Of a stretch of 64,000 nucleotides of DNA, positions 7,689-48,261 are shown one piece after another. The DNA comes from Pseudobdellovibrionaceae bacterium (lineage in GTDB: Bacteria > Bdellovibrionota > Bdellovibrionia > Bdellovibrionales > Bdellovibrionaceae): positions 1-64,000 of the forward strand of contig JALHMX010000016.1 of the NCBI GenBank assembly GCA_022843825.1, written 5' to 3'. Numbering within the stretch: the stretch's first letter is position 1; each line of letters opens with the position of its first letter. The notes beneath the pieces were generated by a model. It was not told where the DNA came from. It saw only the letters and a list, made by a program, of their open reading frames with translations, and ran no database searches. A program made the position numbers and the translations under genes.

Positions 7689-8482
7689 AAGCAATAAGCA
7701 ACTTATTAAACAAAATTCAAAAATCAATTTTTAGTGTAGGTGAAGTTGTTGTATTTGCATGGCGTAGCTTAGTTCTCATTTTTCAACCACCGTATCGATT
7801 TACAGAAATTATGCGACATATGGAGTTTGTAGGTAACCAATCAGTTGGGATTATTACATTAACCAGTATTTTTACAGGCCTAGCGTTGTCATTTCAAATA
7901 TATTTGGGATTTAAATTAGTTAATGCGACGAACTTGGTAGGCCCCATTGTTGCCATGGGTATCACTCGAGAGCTAGGACCAGTTCTAACTGGTCTCATCG
8001 TGGCCGCGCGGGCTGGCGGAGCTATGGCCGCACGCTTGGGTACAATGCGAGTGAATGAACAAATCGATGCGCTGGATGTTATGGGGGTCAATACTAAGCA
8101 ATACTTAGTGGCTCCCCGAATAGTCGCCGCCGCGATTTGCATGCCTTTGTTAACGGCGCTCTTCGATTTTATGGCGATGTTTGGCTCATGGATTTTATGT
8201 ATTAAAATCGTCGGACTAGATCAGGCTATTTTCTTTGAGAAAATACGCCAAACCGTCGAGGTCTACCATATTAATGAGGGTTTATTTAAGGCGTTTATTT
8301 TTGGAATTATTTTTTCGGTTATTTGTACCTACCGTGGGTTTAATACTACAGGAGGCGCAAAAGGAGTGGGTGAAGCCACGAACAAGGGAGTTGTTAACAG
8401 TATGGTGGGGATTATTATATTGGATTACTTCCTTATGAATTTGATTCGTATTTTTTACCTTATGACAGGGATTGGTTCATGA
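7679..8482 (+). CDS. mlaE: MlaE-family ABC transporter permease
   Basis: RELGPVLTGLIVAARAGGAMAARLGTMRVNEQIDALDVMGVN is diagnostic of MlaE/YrbE. Confidence 0.95.
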   Translation: MDMKAISNLLNKIQKSIFSVGEVVVFAWRSLVLIFQPPYRFTEIMRHMEFVGNQSVGIITLTSIFTGLALSFQIYLGFKLVNATNLVGPIVAMGITRELGPVLTGLIVAARAGGAMAARLGTMRVNEQIDALDVMGVNTKQYLVAPRIVAAAICMPLLTALFDFMAMFGSWILCIKIVGLDQAIFFEKIRQTVEVYHINEGLFKAFIFGIIFSVICTYRGFNTTGGAKGVGEATNKGVVNSMVGIIILDYFLMNLIRIFYLMTGIGS

Positions 8483-9252
8483 TGGATAAAATTAAAAATA
8501 ATACTTTGGCGATCCAGCTTATCAATTTGAAGAAAAGCTTTGACGCAAACAAATATGTCCTTAAGGGAATAAATTTGGAAATTCCGAAAGGAAGCCTCAC
8601 CGCTATTATCGGGTTTTCAGGAACAGGAAAAAGTGTTTTGCTAAAACACATGCTGGGGTTATATCAACCCACTTCCGGGCAAGTTAAAATTTTAGGAACA
8701 GACCTTTCAACGTTAAATGATAACGAACTGACCAAGTTTCGCTGTCGTTATGGCGTTCTGTTTCAGAGCTCAGCCCTGTTTGACGATATGACTGTATTAG
8801 AAAATGTTTGTTTTCCTCTTGAAGAGCACCGTCGCGAGTTGTCTAAAGAAGAAGTTGTGGCGATTGCCGAGAAGAAATTAATGATGGTAGGGCTTGATCC
8901 CGAACACTACAGTAAACTTCCTAGTCAAATATCTGGGGGAATGCAAAAAAGGACGGGTCTAGCTCGAGCCCTCGCCTTAGATCCAGAAATTCTGATCTAT
9001 GACGAGCCCACCACAGGTTTAGATCCCATTCTGACTGAAATGATAGATAATTTAATACTGGAGACTCACAAGTTAGGCGGGGGAACTACGTCTATAATGG
9101 TATCTCATGACCTATCCGCAGCATTTAGAATCGCGGATCATATCGTGATGTTAGACGCAGGAAACGTGTTGTTGTCGGGAACGGCAGATGATTTTTTCAA
9201 AAGTGATATTGAGTTGGTTAAAAGATTTGTTAATAAAGGGATAAAGCACTAA
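8479..9252 (+). CDS. mlaF: MlaF-like ABC transporter ATP-binding protein
   Basis: Walker A GFSGTGKSVLLKH, signature SGGMQKRTGLARAL, Walker B ILIYDEPTTGLDP. Confidence 0.95.
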   Translation: MMDKIKNNTLAIQLINLKKSFDANKYVLKGINLEIPKGSLTAIIGFSGTGKSVLLKHMLGLYQPTSGQVKILGTDLSTLNDNELTKFRCRYGVLFQSSALFDDMTVLENVCFPLEEHRRELSKEEVVAIAEKKLMMVGLDPEHYSKLPSQISGGMQKRTGLARALALDPEILIYDEPTTGLDPILTEMIDNLILETHKLGGGTTSIMVSHDLSAAFRIADHIVMLDAGNVLLSGTADDFFKSDIELVKRFVNKGIKH

Positions 9253-10631
9253 TGAAGTTATTCAACGCGATTGAGTTTAAAGTAGGCGCATTAGTAATAA
9301 TTATTGGTGGTATCATAGCCTACATGTCTATGCAGGTCAGCGATGACCCCAGCTACTTAGGACGATCTAAAAAGGCCTGGTTCTTACTTCCTAATGCCAG
9401 CGGTCTAATTAAGGGTTCGGCTATTCGCTCAGCGGGTATACCTATTGGCGTTATTAAGGACATCCGCCTGCAAGATGGAAAAGCACGTATTGAGGTTACT
9501 GTTAAATCAGAACTACGACTGACGCGCTCGGCTTATGTAGAAATGAAGGCCAGCGGTATTTTGGGGGATAAGTACATCGAAATTGCACCAGGTGACCCGA
9601 ATGATCCTGAATTAGAGTCAGACGGACAAATTATAAATGTAAAAACTGGTGGCGGCCTTGATGATATGATGGGGCAAATTTCTGAAATAACGATGTCATT
9701 AAAAGACGTCGCTAAAAATCTAAATGAAGCCATAACAAATGATGGAACTCAGTCACATGTTTTAGGTCGTATAGTAAGAAACATAGAGAAGCTTACGCAA
9801 AACTTTGCAGAAATTTCTGATAATAACAAAGATCAAATTTCTGAAGTGGTGTCACAGCTCAACAGTATTACTAAAACTGTGAATGATTTAGTTAACGACG
9901 AATCCGATCAGGGCTTCAAGAAAACGTGGAAAACAACATTGGCGCGTTTGGACACGTCGATGAAAAATATTGAAGATATTACAAGTAAAATCAATCGAGG
10001 CGAAGGAACTATCGGCAAGCTGATCTCTGACGAAAAAACAGCGGATGAAGTGGCGGCAGCTATTGAGGGGCTGGGCGGAATGCTAGACACTGCAAATCGC
10101 GTATCAACCGCGGTCGATTTTCATGGCTACTATATGGATAAAGTCAATTACACGAAGTCTGCAATTGGTATTCAGATTCAGCCGGGCTTAGATCGTTATT
10201 ATTATTTGGGTATTGTTACTGATCCAGCAGGTGTTGTAGAAAAAACAAATACTTATACAACGGGAACCGGTGGAACAACCGAATATGATCAAACGATCAC
10301 TTACAAAAGTAAAACGAAACTTACTGCCTACTTTGCAAAGAATTTTTACGACTTTACTGTTCGCGGCGGTCTTATTGAAAACACGGGGGGTGTCGGATTT
10401 GATTATCGTATGCTACCTAACCGTCGCTTGAAGGCTTCGGTGGATGCTTTTGATTTCGATAACCTTCAGTTGCGCGGCAACGTAAGTTATCAATTTAAGT
10501 ATGGTGTATATATTATGGCTGGATATAATGACATTTTAGATAAAAACAATACTCAATCGGTTTTCGGTGGTGCGGGTTTATTTTTAACTAACGACGATCT
10601 GAAACTTTTACTGACGAAATCTCCATTCTAA
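9252..10631 (+). CDS. mlaD: MlaD/MCE-domain substrate-binding protein with C-terminal barrel-like extension
   Basis: N-terminal TM + MCE domain (FLLPNASGLIKGSAIRSAGIPIGVIKDI…ASGILGDKYIEIAPG); follows mlaEF. Confidence 0.9.
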   Translation: MKLFNAIEFKVGALVIIIGGIIAYMSMQVSDDPSYLGRSKKAWFLLPNASGLIKGSAIRSAGIPIGVIKDIRLQDGKARIEVTVKSELRLTRSAYVEMKASGILGDKYIEIAPGDPNDPELESDGQIINVKTGGGLDDMMGQISEITMSLKDVAKNLNEAITNDGTQSHVLGRIVRNIEKLTQNFAEISDNNKDQISEVVSQLNSITKTVNDLVNDESDQGFKKTWKTTLARLDTSMKNIEDITSKINRGEGTIGKLISDEKTADEVAAAIEGLGGMLDTANRVSTAVDFHGYYMDKVNYTKSAIGIQIQPGLDRYYYLGIVTDPAGVVEKTNTYTTGTGGTTEYDQTITYKSKTKLTAYFAKNFYDFTVRGGLIENTGGVGFDYRMLPNRRLKASVDAFDFDNLQLRGNVSYQFKYGVYIMAGYNDILDKNNTQSVFGGAGLFLTNDDLKLLLTKSPF

Positions 10632-41325: not shown

Positions 41326-41901
41326 ATGACTTTTATCTCTTTAGAGTCAAAGGCCATTTACCGATGCGAAGGCATGGGAGTTCCTCAGCATAATAAATTC
41401 TTATCAAAAGCAACCATAACTACCATTAAGGCCATTCGTAATGACATTCTAGGTCTTGTCGGAAGTGGTCATTATGCTCAGGCTGTGCAGTCGTTGAAAG
41501 AGTTTCTTGATAGCGACTTTGCATATCCCAACTTTAGATTAAAAGTTGAAAGATACGTTAACCACTGTATTGATTTAATTTTAGCGATTGAAGCGAATAG
41601 AAATTTTTCTAGTTTGGCTTCATTGACCAAGCCCAAGCAGTATGAGCTGCGGGAAAAATTTAAGAAACACTACGACGAGCTATCTACAATATTACACAAA
41701 ATCGAAGTGTCTTACGAGGAGCTGAAAGCTAAAGATGACAAATCCACGAAATATTTTGTTAAAGCAGTTTGGGCGTCTTTACTCATTGTGACCATAAATG
41801 CGTTGCTTCTTGATGTTTTTGCAGGCTTAGCTGAAACGGTTTATAGCGTCGTTGATAATAGTATAAATAAGCTGGCCGAAATCATCAGCCAGTATCTTTA
41901 G
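41326..41901 (+). CDS. Hypothetical protein, helical with C-terminal TM
   Basis: ORF trimmed to internal ATG at 41326 to avoid overlap with the divergent OMP; hydrophobic YFVKAVWASLLIVTINALLLDVFAGL. Confidence 0.55.
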   Translation: MTFISLESKAIYRCEGMGVPQHNKFLSKATITTIKAIRNDILGLVGSGHYAQAVQSLKEFLDSDFAYPNFRLKVERYVNHCIDLILAIEANRNFSSLASLTKPKQYELREKFKKHYDELSTILHKIEVSYEELKAKDDKSTKYFVKAVWASLLIVTINALLLDVFAGLAETVYSVVDNSINKLAEIISQYL

Positions 41902-43091
41902 AAAGTATTGATAATTGCTTTTAAACCGATCGGAAGATGATCAGCTCTCATTTCCACTTTTTTACCGTTAAGATATACGGCAGGCGTACCTTGAACGCCA
42001 GCAGCGATAGCCTCATCGGCCATCTTTTTAATTTCATCGTATGCCGTCTTAGACACAGCACATTGCTCAATCTCTTCGTAGTTCAGATTTAAACTCTGTG
42101 CGATTTCTTGGTTTGTTGATGTCATATCTGATACGCTAATTAAAGACTCTTGGCGATCAAAATACCAATAGCTAACATCCCAACCTTTTTGTGCGATTTT
42201 CTCGGCACAGAAAGACCATGTGGCCATTTTACAACGGCTGCCATCGCCTTTGAACTGAACATGTGGATTACAAGTGCCGTCTAAGGCGAATGATTTAAAG
42301 ATCAATTTCACATCACTTCTATCTTGCATAAAGGATTTAAGTGATTGCGCCGCCACTTTGCAGTGAGGACATTTATAGTCGGCAAACTCAGTGACTGTAA
42401 TAGTTCCTTGAGGATTTTTAACTAGACCTAAGCTAACATCAAAGTTATGAACCGGTGACATTTGCCAAAGATTTATTTTTTCGTTAAGCCCTCGGCGCAT
42501 GTCCGCTAAGCCATACTTATCTTGGATAGTTCCCGATATAAACCATGCAATGAGCAATATAGTAATACCAGCGACCCAAGTGCCCTTGTCGCTAAGGATT
42601 TCTATAGGATGATATTTGGCCGGACTAAAAACGGACCAAACTAAGTATAGATTTACGAACGCGAAAATATAGGTGGCTATGCAGAACGGACAAAGGACTT
42701 TGATTTGGAAAGCAGATATGCCAGCTAGTGCAATTGATGCGAAGGCGGATATAAGAAAAAGGCTGCGAACGAAGCCGTTTTGCGTTTCAGTGGATTCTGA
42801 CCAGTCGAGTTTTTTAAAAAGTAACAAGACCAGCATCACTAAATTAAAACACAATCCTAAGACGGCAATGGGTATACTAAAGAGTTCTGAGTACCGACTG
42901 CTTGCGGCGGCATCACAATTTAAGGTGGAACTGATTGAGCAAAGTCCAGCTTCGTTAGTACCTAACTGAACGGCATAGTGATGGACCGTCAGGTAGATAA
43001 ATAGACCAATACTGATTAAAAGTGAAATAATAAGAAGGTTGGATTTGTTTTTCATATATAACATGATTTTTCGTTTAGGCTCTAAAATCAA
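41898..43091 (-). CDS. VKOR-DsbA fusion (vitamin K epoxide reductase family + thioredoxin domain)
   Basis: VKOR region: CSISSTLNCDAAASSRYSELFSIPIAVLG, KVLCPFCIATY; DsbA-like EFADYKCPHCKVAAQSLK, GVQGTPAVYLNGK. Exact start uncertain. Confidence 0.92.
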   Translation of the reverse strand: MILEPKRKIMLYMKNKSNLLIISLLISIGLFIYLTVHHYAVQLGTNEAGLCSISSTLNCDAAASSRYSELFSIPIAVLGLCFNLVMLVLLLFKKLDWSESTETQNGFVRSLFLISAFASIALAGISAFQIKVLCPFCIATYIFAFVNLYLVWSVFSPAKYHPIEILSDKGTWVAGITILLIAWFISGTIQDKYGLADMRRGLNEKINLWQMSPVHNFDVSLGLVKNPQGTITVTEFADYKCPHCKVAAQSLKSFMQDRSDVKLIFKSFALDGTCNPHVQFKGDGSRCKMATWSFCAEKIAQKGWDVSYWYFDRQESLISVSDMTSTNQEIAQSLNLNYEEIEQCAVSKTAYDEIKKMADEAIAAGVQGTPAVYLNGKKVEMRADHLPIGLKAIINTF

Positions 43092-43189: not shown

Positions 43190-44809
43190 GTGGTGAAACA
43201 GCGGGAAAGGCATCTTTCCAACATTCAGTTTGGCTATTATAAAAAAATCAGACAACAGGTTGATCGAGTTTTAGGTTCGGCGCCTCAGGAGCTTAAAAAT
43301 TACACGAAAAAATACGAAAGTGAACTGAAAAAGGCGGCTTACAAGCCCATAAGCTCGAATAGATTTTTTAAGGCAGTAAGTTCGGCTCAAATCCTTTTAG
43401 TCGGAGATTTCCATGCGCAGCCTCAGTCTGCGCGAGCTTTATTAAGAATATGTAGAAAATTAGGGGCCTCACGAATTGTTTTAGCTTTAGAATGTTTTAG
43501 GTCTGCTGATCAAAAGCACATCAATTCATACATTTTAGGCGATCTTTCAGAAACAGATTTTTTAAAGGCGATTGGATGGGAAAAGTATTGGGGTTTTCCT
43601 TGGGAACCCACGCGCACCTTGATAAAATGGGCCTCACACCATTCTGTGCCTGTGTATGGAATAAATCTTTCAGGAAAAAATAAAAAATTGAAGCAACGAG
43701 ATCGGCATTTTTCTCAAGAACTAAGTCGCTTAGTCCAAAGTCATCCAGATAAAGTTATAGTAACACAAATTGGAGATTTTCATTTAGCTGATAAACACCT
43801 ACCTTTGGAATTAAAAAAAAATAATGCTAAGATAAGTGTTCATAGCTTGTTTCAAAGTCCCGATGCTTTGTATTTTAAAAATTTAAAGAGTCGATCCGCT
43901 CAAACAGCAGATTTGAAAAATGTTGATTTTTTCAGTCTCGGTGGAAATCGGTGGGCTTTAATGACCGTTGTTCCTTGGGTAAAGTGGCAGGATTATCTGC
44001 TTTATCTAGAAAGTGGGTGGGATAAGAGCGTTGCAGCTGAGGATGTCAGTGATATAGATATTACTGATCATGTCGATAAATTCGTTCATCTGATGAGTCA
44101 CTCATTAAGAGTAACCATCGATAACACCGATTTAAGCGTCTATCACAGTCAGGATCCTCAAGTCGCTAAAGCCGCGAAAAAACTTGATGGAGCTATCTAT
44201 CGTAAAATAAAAAAAGATCTATCTAATAATATTTCAATGTATATTCCAGAGCTGCAAATGGGTGTTGTTAGTCGTTTAACAGTCAACCACATTTCGCGCG
44301 TAGCGGCGCAGTTTATAATGTTTAAGTTGGGTGCTTATAATAAAACTTTGGTTGATGTTAAAAGTCATTTTTTGAAAATGATTTGGTTGGAAATGTTAAC
44401 ATATTTTATGTCAAAAATTGCGAATCCTAAAAGAAAAACAGACACATTAAGTGATATTCGGAACACCTTAAGTAATGCGGAGTTTGAAGATAGTGGTCGG
44501 CAAACATTGGCTTTGGCGCTAGAGCAAAAAATGAGAGAAATTCAGTATATTAACTCCGGCGATGTATCCATAGCTCAATCTCGCAAATCTAAGTTTCAGA
44601 ATTATACCGTGGCCAGTGGAATACTCGGTGGGGTTTTGGGAGAAAAAGTTTTTCATGCCTTTAACAAAAAACTTATACGTTTTCCGGCAGCTCAAAATTT
44701 TCTATTTAAAGACTTAAATGAAAAAAATTTCGAAGCTGTTTACTACGATGCTATTGAGGTTATAGATTCGTGGCCACTTCCTTTTCAAAGCAAGTACGAT
44801 CAGTTTTAA
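43190..44809 (+). CDS. ChaN/Tiki-superfamily protein
   Basis: ILLVGDFHAQPQSARALLRICRKLGASRIVLALECF; WASHHSVPVYGINL; VTQIGDFHLADKHLP; GTG start. Confidence 0.72.
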   Translation: MVKQRERHLSNIQFGYYKKIRQQVDRVLGSAPQELKNYTKKYESELKKAAYKPISSNRFFKAVSSAQILLVGDFHAQPQSARALLRICRKLGASRIVLALECFRSADQKHINSYILGDLSETDFLKAIGWEKYWGFPWEPTRTLIKWASHHSVPVYGINLSGKNKKLKQRDRHFSQELSRLVQSHPDKVIVTQIGDFHLADKHLPLELKKNNAKISVHSLFQSPDALYFKNLKSRSAQTADLKNVDFFSLGGNRWALMTVVPWVKWQDYLLYLESGWDKSVAAEDVSDIDITDHVDKFVHLMSHSLRVTIDNTDLSVYHSQDPQVAKAAKKLDGAIYRKIKKDLSNNISMYIPELQMGVVSRLTVNHISRVAAQFIMFKLGAYNKTLVDVKSHFLKMIWLEMLTYFMSKIANPKRKTDTLSDIRNTLSNAEFEDSGRQTLALALEQKMREIQYINSGDVSIAQSRKSKFQNYTVASGILGGVLGEKVFHAFNKKLIRFPAAQNFLFKDLNEKNFEAVYYDAIEVIDSWPLPFQSKYDQF

Positions 44810-44842: not shown

Positions 44843-45388
44843 TTATGCTGAGCTAGGCTTATGTTTTCTGTAGGCGTAGTTTTCTTTTCTTGGCGTATAC
44901 GGAGTAAACCCTAATGCTTCTAAAGTATTTTGTAAGAGATAGCTTATCGCTGTCTTATAGTCCTTCCCCCAATGCAGCAGTCTTGAAAACGGCCTATACT
45001 CCCAGAAGGCTTGTCCTTTATAAGGAGTTTTATACCCCTCGCCCCGTTTATGATTATCAGAAATAGAGTCTAAGGCCAGATGAAGTAAAAAATCTTTAAA
45101 GCTCATGTGGTTCATCATAAACGATGCAATTTTTCCGGAGATAATCGAGATAAAACACTTATACGCATATTTAGAAGGAACTTTTATAATCAAATGGATG
45201 TGATTAGACTGAATGGCTTTGCGGTAAATTCGTATTCCGTACTTGGAAGCGGTTTTGCTCAATATAGATTCTATATTTTTGTGATTTTTTACAGTCCTGA
45301 ATGATCTGCGACCACCAGCAAACTGAGATCTTAACACGAAGTGAATTGGTTCTTTGGTGTTAATGGGGCGAGGGGGCCTAAGCCACAC
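44843..45388 (-). mobile_element. REP-associated tyrosine transposase (RAYT)/IS200-like Y1 transposase family CDS
   Basis: HUH motif AIQSNHIHLIIKVPSK; flanking FVLRSQFAGGRRSF and SYLLQNTLEALGF as in TnpA-REP proteins; no flanking IS ends identified. Confidence 0.8.
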
Positions 45389-45613: not shown

Positions 45614-45647
45614 TTCATAGTTTTTAAAATCACTGCAAGGAGAATGA

Positions 45648-48116
45648 ATGAAGAATATTTTAAAGTTGAATAAAATTATAATGATGGGGTTGGTGACAAC
45701 TTTTTTAGTTGTTACAAGCTGTACCCACTTCAATAATAAAACATCACAGCCCCGAGATCCTGCCAGTGAGATCCCTTTAAATCAGCCGTGGTCGTATGAT
45801 CCAGGTCCATCTCCGGATACAGCTATGGGTAAGGAGCTTATTGATATCGTTGCCTCTCAACCTAACATGCCAGGTATTTCAATGGATATAATTGGTTCAC
45901 AAAAATTTCGTCCGGCGTTTGGTCCGACTTTGTGGAGAATGTTACAAAATCCTAACAGTGTGAAGATTTTATTCATCGGACAAGATGGTACTCACATCGC
46001 TGAAGCGGCAGGACGAACAGCGACTGCGGGCTTTGGTGGCCGGGCTCAGGATATGGCCTATCATTTTGGAGTTTCGCAAAGCTCAGCGTTTATGAATACC
46101 TACGCTTTTACTATTAAGGGACAGTATTCAGCGTTTGGAGTACCTGTGATTTCTGAAGAAAATGGCGTCAAGCGCGTATCATATGACTCTGTTGTAGAAA
46201 ACAGCTTATGGTTAGTCTCACAAGATAACAACAGTCCGATGGTTAAATGGAGAAACCGTTTAATCGATTGGATTATTCGTAATAATAAAGACTCTTTAAA
46301 ATTAGTCGTCTTATTCGGTGGAGCCGCTCAGGATGCCGTTGGAACTTTTATTGAAAGTAAAGGCGGAAAAGTAGGCGCGCGCTACACAGCGCAAGAGCTG
46401 GCTGCAAAAAAAGTTAAAGTTCCTATGTTTCAAAATGTATCAACTGGTGGAAACGGTGAAATGCCAGTGGCCTTAACTAAGGATAATAAAGATGTCTTTA
46501 AAGCTACGGGATTTGATGTTCCATACACGGAGTTAACTTTGCAGTTGCCCCGTGGTGATAAAACCACTCCGCAATATTTAGCTATAGAAAAGCGTTTAAA
46601 GGCTGCGCAGGCCAAATTAATGGAAGCTAAAAATTATTTATCGACAAACATCGAAACGGAATATTCTCGTTTGGCTATTCCTAACGGCGGCTTGGCAAAT
46701 AGTGGAATAATTCATCCAGCTCAGATCGGTGGTTTTGATTTGGCTCAGATCACTATTAACGGCCAAAAAACAATTTCCTTAAAAGGTTTGCCTTTGGATG
46801 ATGGATCTACAATTCAAAATGATATTCTCGTCGCAGAGTTCCCTCACCCAACTGCGTTAAGTAATAATATGGCCACGGCTTCAGAAAGAGTGGGGAAATC
46901 ACTTGAGCTATTAAAACCTATGAAGGCTAAAGGGTGGCAGATCACTCCTGACCCAGGTATGGTTAACAAGTTTATAAATGACGAGCCTTATAAATATGGT
47001 CGCGTGGACATTCCTTTAGATTTTTATGATTTTGGAACTCCGAACAATCGTATGGTATCAGTCTCTTCAGCATCACGTATGTCAAGAATGGCTAATGTAA
47101 TAGTTATCGGCACACGTGATAAAGCAACCTTTGATATGACTAAACTAAACGCGGCTACGAAAACACCGATGCCTTACGGTATTTCTGCTGACGAGTTTTT
47201 CACCGCAAGACCACGTGGCATTACTGATCGTTACATTTTTGATCGAGGGCCAGGTGAAAGAATGGCTCGTATTATGAAAGAAAATATTGATATGAAAGTT
47301 ATTGGCCAGCCTAAGGCGGGTACTACGGATTCATTCAATATTAAATCTCACCCTGAAGATGTAGGTGATTTTGGTCACTACCGCGGGACTTTTAATCGTC
47401 CGGAAGTCGTTATCTTAGCTGACCCAGACGGTGTAGACGACATTTTAACTTCGCGAGCATTAACGGGGACGCGTGGACAATACTTACAAAGCATGATGAA
47501 CGCGATAGGTGTTCCAACACAGTACTTAGTTATTAAAACGGTGCCCTTTGCAATGGATGGAGCTACAGCTACAGAGTGGAAAACCGTGCTAGACCAAACT
47601 GCAAACTATCGCCAAGCTATTTTTAGAGCGGTTTTAGAAAATCCGTCAGTTAAAATGATTATCACGGATGGCTCTTACGCTGCCGCAGAAATAAAAAATA
47701 TAAATACGCAGAAAATCCCAGTGGTTAATATTCAAAGAGTCGGATTAGAAAACAATTCTGGTATTGACAAAGCACTTTCTGACATTAATAAAAAGAAAGT
47801 TTTTTCAAAAGTTCAGAGCACTAAATATGTTGCTAGTCGAATGTCGAATATTCCTCGATCTCACTTGGGTTACTTTTCTCGTGTGTGGGAAGGAACCAGT
47901 GGAACGCGTGTATTTAATGCGACATCGCCAGCGGATCGTGGTATTGCTTACGCGATTGTGGCGCCTCAGTGGTCGTATTATCAGAAAAACATCGAGCAAA
48001 GTGCTCAAGAGCGCAATGACGTGAGAAACTTAAAGTCTATACTCGTGAATCAAAAATTACCGCTAGGTGGTCAGACGTACCAACAGTACATTGGCACTCA
48101 AGGACAAATTCAGTAA
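45648..48116 (+). CDS. Lipoprotein with uracil-DNA-glycosylase-superfamily-like domain, apparently duplicated
   Basis: Lipobox VVTSC; domain 1 VKILFIGQDGTHIAEAAGRTATAGFGGRAQDMA…FMNTYAF…LVVLFGGAAQDAV…EFPHPTALS; domain 2 VVILADPDGVDDILTSRALTGTRGQYLQSMMNAIGV…IPRSHLGYFSRVWEGTSGTR. Confidence 0.7.
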   Translation: MKNILKLNKIIMMGLVTTFLVVTSCTHFNNKTSQPRDPASEIPLNQPWSYDPGPSPDTAMGKELIDIVASQPNMPGISMDIIGSQKFRPAFGPTLWRMLQNPNSVKILFIGQDGTHIAEAAGRTATAGFGGRAQDMAYHFGVSQSSAFMNTYAFTIKGQYSAFGVPVISEENGVKRVSYDSVVENSLWLVSQDNNSPMVKWRNRLIDWIIRNNKDSLKLVVLFGGAAQDAVGTFIESKGGKVGARYTAQELAAKKVKVPMFQNVSTGGNGEMPVALTKDNKDVFKATGFDVPYTELTLQLPRGDKTTPQYLAIEKRLKAAQAKLMEAKNYLSTNIETEYSRLAIPNGGLANSGIIHPAQIGGFDLAQITINGQKTISLKGLPLDDGSTIQNDILVAEFPHPTALSNNMATASERVGKSLELLKPMKAKGWQITPDPGMVNKFINDEPYKYGRVDIPLDFYDFGTPNNRMVSVSSASRMSRMANVIVIGTRDKATFDMTKLNAATKTPMPYGISADEFFTARPRGITDRYIFDRGPGERMARIMKENIDMKVIGQPKAGTTDSFNIKSHPEDVGDFGHYRGTFNRPEVVILADPDGVDDILTSRALTGTRGQYLQSMMNAIGVPTQYLVIKTVPFAMDGATATEWKTVLDQTANYRQAIFRAVLENPSVKMIITDGSYAAAEIKNINTQKIPVVNIQRVGLENNSGIDKALSDINKKKVFSKVQSTKYVASRMSNIPRSHLGYFSRVWEGTSGTRVFNATSPADRGIAYAIVAPQWSYYQKNIEQSAQERNDVRNLKSILVNQKLPLGGQTYQQYIGTQGQIQ

Positions 48117-48141
48117 TAGAAATTGCTTTAGATAAAGACAA

Positions 48142-48174
48142 TGAAAAAGGCAGGTCTAAAACCTGCCTTTTTCA
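48142..48174. terminator. Bidirectional-looking rho-independent terminator
   Basis: TGAAAAAGGCAGGTctaaaACCTGCCTTTTTCA. Confidence 0.88.
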
Positions 48175-48261
48175 TTCGTAGAATCTCATTTTGATATTTA
48201 TAATTTCTTATTAACCAAGAAAGTATTAAACTTTAGTCCAGGTCCGGCCGATAGTTTATTC

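Follow-up and report, generated by a model that had tools for sequence, protein, structure and literature searches.

An exported lipoprotein with two uracil-DNA-glycosylase-fold units in Bdellovibrionota and its association with a NADAR-like protein

The window analysed here, a contiguous stretch of 64,000 nucleotides from a genome of the Pseudobdellovibrionaceae, encodes at 45648..48116 (+, stop codon within these coordinates) an 822-residue lipoprotein with two units of uracil-DNA-glycosylase (UDG) fold, hereafter called tandem UDG. The ATG of the gene lies 5 nt downstream of a Shine-Dalgarno sequence, AAGGAG, which can be read at 45637..45642 (+), and the reading frame starts with a predicted signal peptide closing with the lipobox VTSC (45648..45722, +; assigned from the sequence by a hydrophobicity/lipobox rule). 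Hereby, Cys25 of the lipobox is the sole cysteine among the 822 residues, and the mature protein has a calculated pI of 9.3. The length of the reading frame, the lipobox (V-T-S-C25) and the motifs quoted in a first-pass annotation of this DNA are all present in the sequence as written there. Downstream of the gene, an inverted repeat of 17 bp with T/A-rich ends (48140..48176, no strand) likely represents a terminator. The tandem-UDG gene, followed by this terminator-like repeat and flanked on the other side by a Y1 transposase gene on the opposite strand, looks like a single-cistron unit. The transposase, of the IS200/REP-associated type Y1 (PF01797), is encoded just upstream at 44843-45388 (-). 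It is preceded by the gene of a ChaN-like protein (PF04187; 539 aa; 43190-44809, +), which is near-universal in the class (92/107 genomes), and by that of a membrane protein (41898-43091, -) which by eye resembles a fusion of VKOR and a DsbA-type thioredoxin (oxidative folding). No relatives of the tandem-UDG protein were found in phages, plasmids or viral contigs, and a mobile or phage gene was rejected on this ground; searches of NCBIfam and PHROGs with the window protein gave no match, and neither did PADLOC. UDG-superfamily enzymes are intracellular repair proteins, and the window genome has an additional gene for an Ung bearing GQDPYH and HPSPLS, so that cytosolic repair is already covered.

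The first-pass annotation had proposed a UDG-like fold for both halves of the protein, on which Pfam, profile searches, Foldseek and hhalign agree. On the C-terminal half, the Pfam UDG family (PF03167) scores above its gathering cut-off (residues 584-689, E = 2.6e-5), although this is borderline at 24.8 bits versus 24.3, and it matches 14/20 family members at E values up to 0.01. When single sequences were compared to the whole PDB by phmmer, BdiUng (5gn2) was found both with the full protein, via its N-half (E = 0.0046), and with the C-half alone (E = 0.0033). With family profiles the same structure was recovered at E = 3.2e-21 (whole protein), 6.4e-22 (N-half profile of subtype II, see below) and 8.6e-11 (C-half profile), and was the sole PDB match under E 0.01 for each family profile searched. 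The possibility that both halves adopt a non-UDG fold was addressed by AlphaFold and Foldseek, and both halves came out as UDG. Hereby, the model of the full-length protein (pLDDT 88, pTM 0.88) retrieved BdiUng first and only UDGs among the best 50 PDB matches listed, and the C-half modelled alone (pLDDT 92) again retrieved BdiUng first (E = 4.5e-11, TM 0.62/0.67), with ranks 2-41 taken by the UDG/TDG/SMUG superfamily. Finally, hhalign comparison of the N-half and C-half profiles yielded probabilities of 97% and 98.4% (E = 1.2e-10 and 8.6e-15). That the motifs are a chance likeness, or belong to a non-UDG alpha/beta fold, has in its favor the weak single-sequence similarity to solved UDGs (E about 0.004), but family profiles, structure, Pfam and the half-versus-half comparison agree on UDG, so that this explanation is already refuted and its probability is practically nil. 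Based on the Pfam and PDB profile matches, AlphaFold/Foldseek and the comparison of the halves with each other, the window protein consists of two fused UDG-fold halves, and the duplication is established as far as computation goes. The suggested resemblance to families 1 and 4/5 has to be revised: as judged by sequence profiles and predicted fold, the nearest known family is that of BdiUng, not family 1 or 4/5.

Spread across the phylum, which the annotation had named as a point to check, amounts to 57/242 Bdellovibrionota genomes in two clades, with generally one copy per carrier genome. When 84,980 species, each represented by a single genome, were scanned with an alignment, 63 relatives were returned, nearly all named Bdellovibrionota; a few relatives from MAGs are labelled otherwise, e.g. 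Deltaproteobacteria, and one of these (L101) matches genome G244, which is placed in Bdellovibrionota. The family is split by a single fully supported tree branch into subtype I, to which the window protein belongs (signature GQDGTH / ADP / Lys / IPRxHL), and subtype II (GQEGAQDEN / ADQ / Arg / IPRxDL), which is about 100 aa shorter. Both run through Bdellovibrionota and co-exist in the window's genus, where genome G002 carries subtype I and Ca. B. qaytius (CP025734, L092) subtype II. Among the carriers, two with a complete genome fall in the epibiotic Pseudobdellovibrio group. In genus g6, which we take to include B. bacteriovorus HD100 (G060), tandem UDG was found in none of 22 genomes, so that it does not qualify as a general predation gene, nor does predation as such require it.

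Export to the surface or periplasm had likewise been anticipated. A hydrophobic signal sequence, called by a simple hydrophobicity and lipobox rule distinct from SignalP, is present in 65/65 complete N-termini, the two rows without it being cut by contig ends. Many type I members are free of cysteine, and cysteine counts in type II are mostly even, as for disulphides. Taken together, the family-wide signal sequence, the lone lipobox cysteine of the window protein, the Cys-free type I members and the even counts in type II make the predicted extracytoplasmic location of the family well supported.

The N-terminal UDG unit (residues 86-420; 45903..46907, +), as delimited by profiles and the AlphaFold model, contains the motifs GQD, FMNT, VVLFGGAAQ and HPTALS. 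Residue conservation was counted over 67 non-redundant relatives. Motif A, GQD in the window protein (residues 111-113; 45978..45986, +), reads GQ(D/E) in 66/66 relatives bar one GED; hereby, the position of Asp113 is occupied by Asp in 41 and by Glu in 25. The base-recognition residue Asn150 (46095..46097, +) is kept in 64/65, and in motif B, His400-Pro401 of HPTALS (46845..46850, +), His is found in 65/66 and Pro in 66/66. A segment inserted between core strands 3 and 4 (residues 241-389; 46368..46814, +) is poorly conserved and mostly missing from subtype II. The residues that mark the UDG superfamily, namely the Asp/Glu of motif A, the base-binding Asn and the His of motif B, are thus present in the N-half. 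The family alignment also bears out the annotation in that the Asp of GQD (apart from the 25 relatives with Glu) and the His of HPT are kept and the Tyr of Ung is lost. The correspondence of D113 and H400 to the active site rests on the alignment with GQD and HPT of BdiUng, of which the latter aligns with HPG of subtype II in a profile alignment. Judged by these alignments, the N-half keeps the UDG catalytic set (Asp/Glu of GQD/E, Asn150, His400) family-wide. The HPTALS loop including its Leu is retained in subtype I. The subtype II half of the family, in which Glu replaces Asp113 and the Leu of the intercalating loop is missing (HPG), may not cleave DNA. One degenerate member of 525 aa (L039 in genome G014, 7863-9437, -) has a shortened N-half in which N150 is changed to Q and H400 to N.

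A different picture emerges for the C-terminal UDG unit (residues 528-822; 47229..48113, +), whose fold was confirmed on the C-half alone. Here the position of the Gln of GQD is taken by the invariant Asp592, kept in 64/64 relatives, and that of the catalytic Asp by Pro593 (47421..47426, + for both), this position being Pro or, in subtype II, Gln, and never Asp. Lys630 (47535..47537, +) occupies the position of the base-recognition Asn of UDGs; it is Arg in subtype II, and Lys or Arg in nearly all relatives, with Asn or Ser in six. The residue equivalent to the His of BdiUng is Arg697, with Arg or other residues in relatives. The UDG catalytic set is accordingly lost from the C-half. Apart from Asp592, the residues Arg579-Gly580, Ala604, Gly607, Gly610-Gln611 and Pro633 do not vary among the 64 covering sequences, and the two UDG cores have 16 and 15 columns conserved at at least 90%. 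Hence, while the duplicated pattern seen in the annotation was recovered by hhalign, its description of the second copy as eroded does not hold. Since residues are invariant despite the lost catalytic set, the C-half is not decaying; it has apparently been re-purposed for another job, with an invariant pocket of its own. An element IPR.HL....R.WEGTSG (residues 735-752; 47850..47903, +) is conserved 3' of the C-terminal UDG core. The second HPS loop which had been read into this element, at IPRSHLGYFSRVWEGTSGTR, has to be withdrawn, as this segment aligns in the subtype II profile with the N-half element IP.RDFAFGTNWRMG..GTTS, downstream of the UDG core.

A strongly conserved C-half without a catalytic set is also what one would expect of a non-catalytic receptor located outside the cytoplasm, which would capture nucleotides, bases or DNA for sensing or uptake. 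Anchoring as a lipoprotein, the change of Asp to Glu in subtype II and the precedent of other UDG-fold proteins which became binding modules agree with such a role. In the N-half, however, Asp/Glu, Asn and His are nearly always retained, a trio that a pure binder would not need, and its site residues are lost in G014, a genome lacking the NADAR-like partner described below, as if activity were under selection. Overall, we regard a receptor as unlikely.

When neighbouring genes were clustered across the tandem-UDG loci, three recurrent exported neighbours were found: a NADAR-like protein, a protein of the endonuclease/exonuclease/phosphatase (EEP) family (PF19580) and an amidohydrolase with closest resemblance to TRZ/ATZ nucleobase deaminases. 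The NADAR-like gene is present in 53/57 genomes with tandem UDG versus 27/185 others (Fisher p = 3e-28) and, at the genus level, in 38/40 tandem-UDG genera versus 8/93 others (p = 6e-23), in statistics which treat species as independent, which they are not; the control, the upstream ChaN-like gene, is weak, being near-universal (92/107 genomes). At 11 distinct loci from both clades (L051, L057, L073, L075, L076, L084, L085, L090, L096, L139 and L140) the NADAR-like gene adjoins the tandem-UDG gene. In the window's genus, six genomes have both genes and five neither; in the window genome itself, the NADAR-like gene lies at G000:C5:96880-97518 (L116), unlinked to the tandem-UDG gene. Three of the four tandem-UDG genomes without the NADAR-like gene are 91-92% complete. 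The fourth, G014, is 99% complete and, with its decayed N-half site, fits a shared function of the two proteins, as a single case only.

By profile, the partner matches the YbiA structure 2b3w (E = 2.6e-6); it remains below the Pfam NADAR cut-off (22.9 versus 35.1 bits), its TIGR02464 match is weak, and by alignment it retains the Glu and Lys whose importance in NADAR/YbiA is known. This exported subfamily, lipoprotein or with signal peptide and with an invariant P..WW...WEI.P leader, occurs in 80/242 Bdellovibrionota genomes, including a genome of genus g6 (G060:C1:1944611-1945195, L143), and in L136 (G154, 331-1860, +) the exported NADAR-like domain is fused to an unassigned C-terminal domain of about 290 aa. 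We found no description of the subfamily in Bdellovibrionota in the literature. A NADAR-UDG fusion was looked for and none found; there was no UDG-like protein among the genes around NADAR in Bdellovibrio, and no DarT toxin gene beside the NADAR-like gene in the loci read. NADARs either take ADP-ribose off guanine or act as hydrolases on riboflavin intermediates (PMC11543638).

Regarding the other two neighbours, co-occurrence of the EEP nuclease was set aside, the profile being too broad (92/107 genomes), so that only the adjacency of this exported nuclease-like protein to tandem-UDG loci counts. The exported amidohydrolase, 520-1100 aa in length, has a TRZ/ATZ deaminase-like core and often an extra C-terminal part (L042, L077, L080, L081, L083, L085, L091, L092, L093, L099, L100 and L149), and within the class, tandem UDG is likewise present in 10 of the 12 genomes that carry it. 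At L080, L081, L088 and L093, the subtype II gene is closely followed by genes for two small exported proteins of unassigned family, one of about 180 aa and the other of about 290 aa, which precede the amidohydrolase where it is present. The two-domain fold might also serve a small molecule other than nucleic acid, in a periplasmic flavin, pterin or nucleoside-like pathway together with NADAR and amidohydrolase, given that NADAR/YbiA hydrolyses riboflavin-pathway intermediates (PMC11543638), that the partner's weak TIGR02464 match is to that very enzyme and that the linked amidohydrolase is TRZ/ATZ-like. Against this speak the linked EEP-type nuclease, the basic mature protein (pI 9.3) and the HPTALS loop with its Leu kept in subtype I, and we consider such a pathway improbable.

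Our preferred reading, which we judge to have an even chance of being correct, is that tandem UDG is an exported, membrane-anchored enzyme, a fused BdiUng-type pseudo-dimer, which processes bases of external nucleic acid together with the NADAR-like protein. The notion of a fused dimer derives from BdiUng itself, which according to a 2017 study is reportedly a dimer, broad in substrate range and Ugi-resistant. We infer catalysis, substrate, partner chemistry and the link to prey as follows. The N-half would flip out and excise, or at least bind, an aberrant or modified base outside the cytoplasm, acting on single-stranded DNA, oligonucleotides or nucleotides, and the missing gatekeeper Tyr of Ung might, as in BdiUng, let it accept a broad range of bases. 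The putatively non-cleaving C-half would hold nucleic acid or phosphate via its Asp592/Lys-Arg630 pocket and the IPR..W.GTSG element. The exported NADAR-like protein could act on the same material, e.g. by freeing bases of ADP-ribose or some other N-linked group, and the linked exported nucleases and deaminase-like amidohydrolases could process the resulting fragments. The material would probably be prey-derived or environmental DNA in predatory or formerly predatory bacteria. The simplest role that tandem UDG and the NADAR-like protein could have in common is to act jointly, outside the cytoplasm, on modified bases or nucleotides; the linked nuclease and the deaminase-like neighbour favour this, as does the basic pI, which is compatible with nucleic acid binding. 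Co-occurrence of the two genes can, though, reflect a shared lifestyle rather than a shared substrate; 27 genomes carry the NADAR-like protein without tandem UDG, and the ligand could be a free nucleotide rather than DNA.

In the literature searched we found no description of an exported UDG, nor of a tandem-UDG family of Bdellovibrionota. The tandem UDG represents a new family inside the known UDG superfamily, possibly with a new system around it. Such a phylum-specific extracytoplasmic system for nucleobase editing or stripping on prey or environmental nucleic acid, consisting of tandem UDG and NADAR and often nuclease and amidohydrolase, is a tentative proposal which we give somewhat less than even chances. 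If true, base-excision chemistry would have been relocated to the outside of the cytoplasm, where it would serve feeding or the neutralisation of modified foreign DNA; a conserved, exported and doubled UDG with its own partner points to an extracellular use of base-flipping chemistry. The family gives a testable handle on the handling of foreign nucleic acid by Bdellovibrionota, and may supply a robust Cys-free enzyme for base binding or excision as well as a function for the exported NADAR subfamily.

Of the proteins with a solved structure, BdiUng (Blr0248 from Bradyrhizobium diazoefficiens; PDB 5gn2) is closest to each of the two halves, both in sequence profile and in fold. Common to BdiUng and tandem UDG are GQD without the Tyr of Ung, VNTF, HP(T), aligned through the subtype II profile, and the elements YR.K.F and fR..GP..hRGrL. 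BdiUng is a single-domain protein of 272 residues of the cell interior, whereas tandem UDG has two fused units and a signal peptide; the second unit is without the catalytic set, and subtype I adds the long segment inserted between core strands 3 and 4. Broad base specificity is described for BdiUng-like enzymes (PMC8307549). With family 1 UDG (Ung), tandem UDG shares the superfamily and the order of GQD then HP(S/T).LS, but it is exported, doubled and without the Tyr and Pro of GQDPY (GQDGT or GQEGA). Family 4/5 UDGs and UdgX share the overall fold and follow BdiUng among the top matches of Foldseek, yet tandem UDG has neither the 4Fe-4S cysteines nor the KRRIH loop of UdgX, and membership in family 4/5 was rejected, as the single Cys25 stands against the four cysteines of a 4Fe-4S cluster. 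The partner, finally, differs from the NADAR/YbiA family in being exported and in forming its own subfamily with the P..WW...WEI.P leader.
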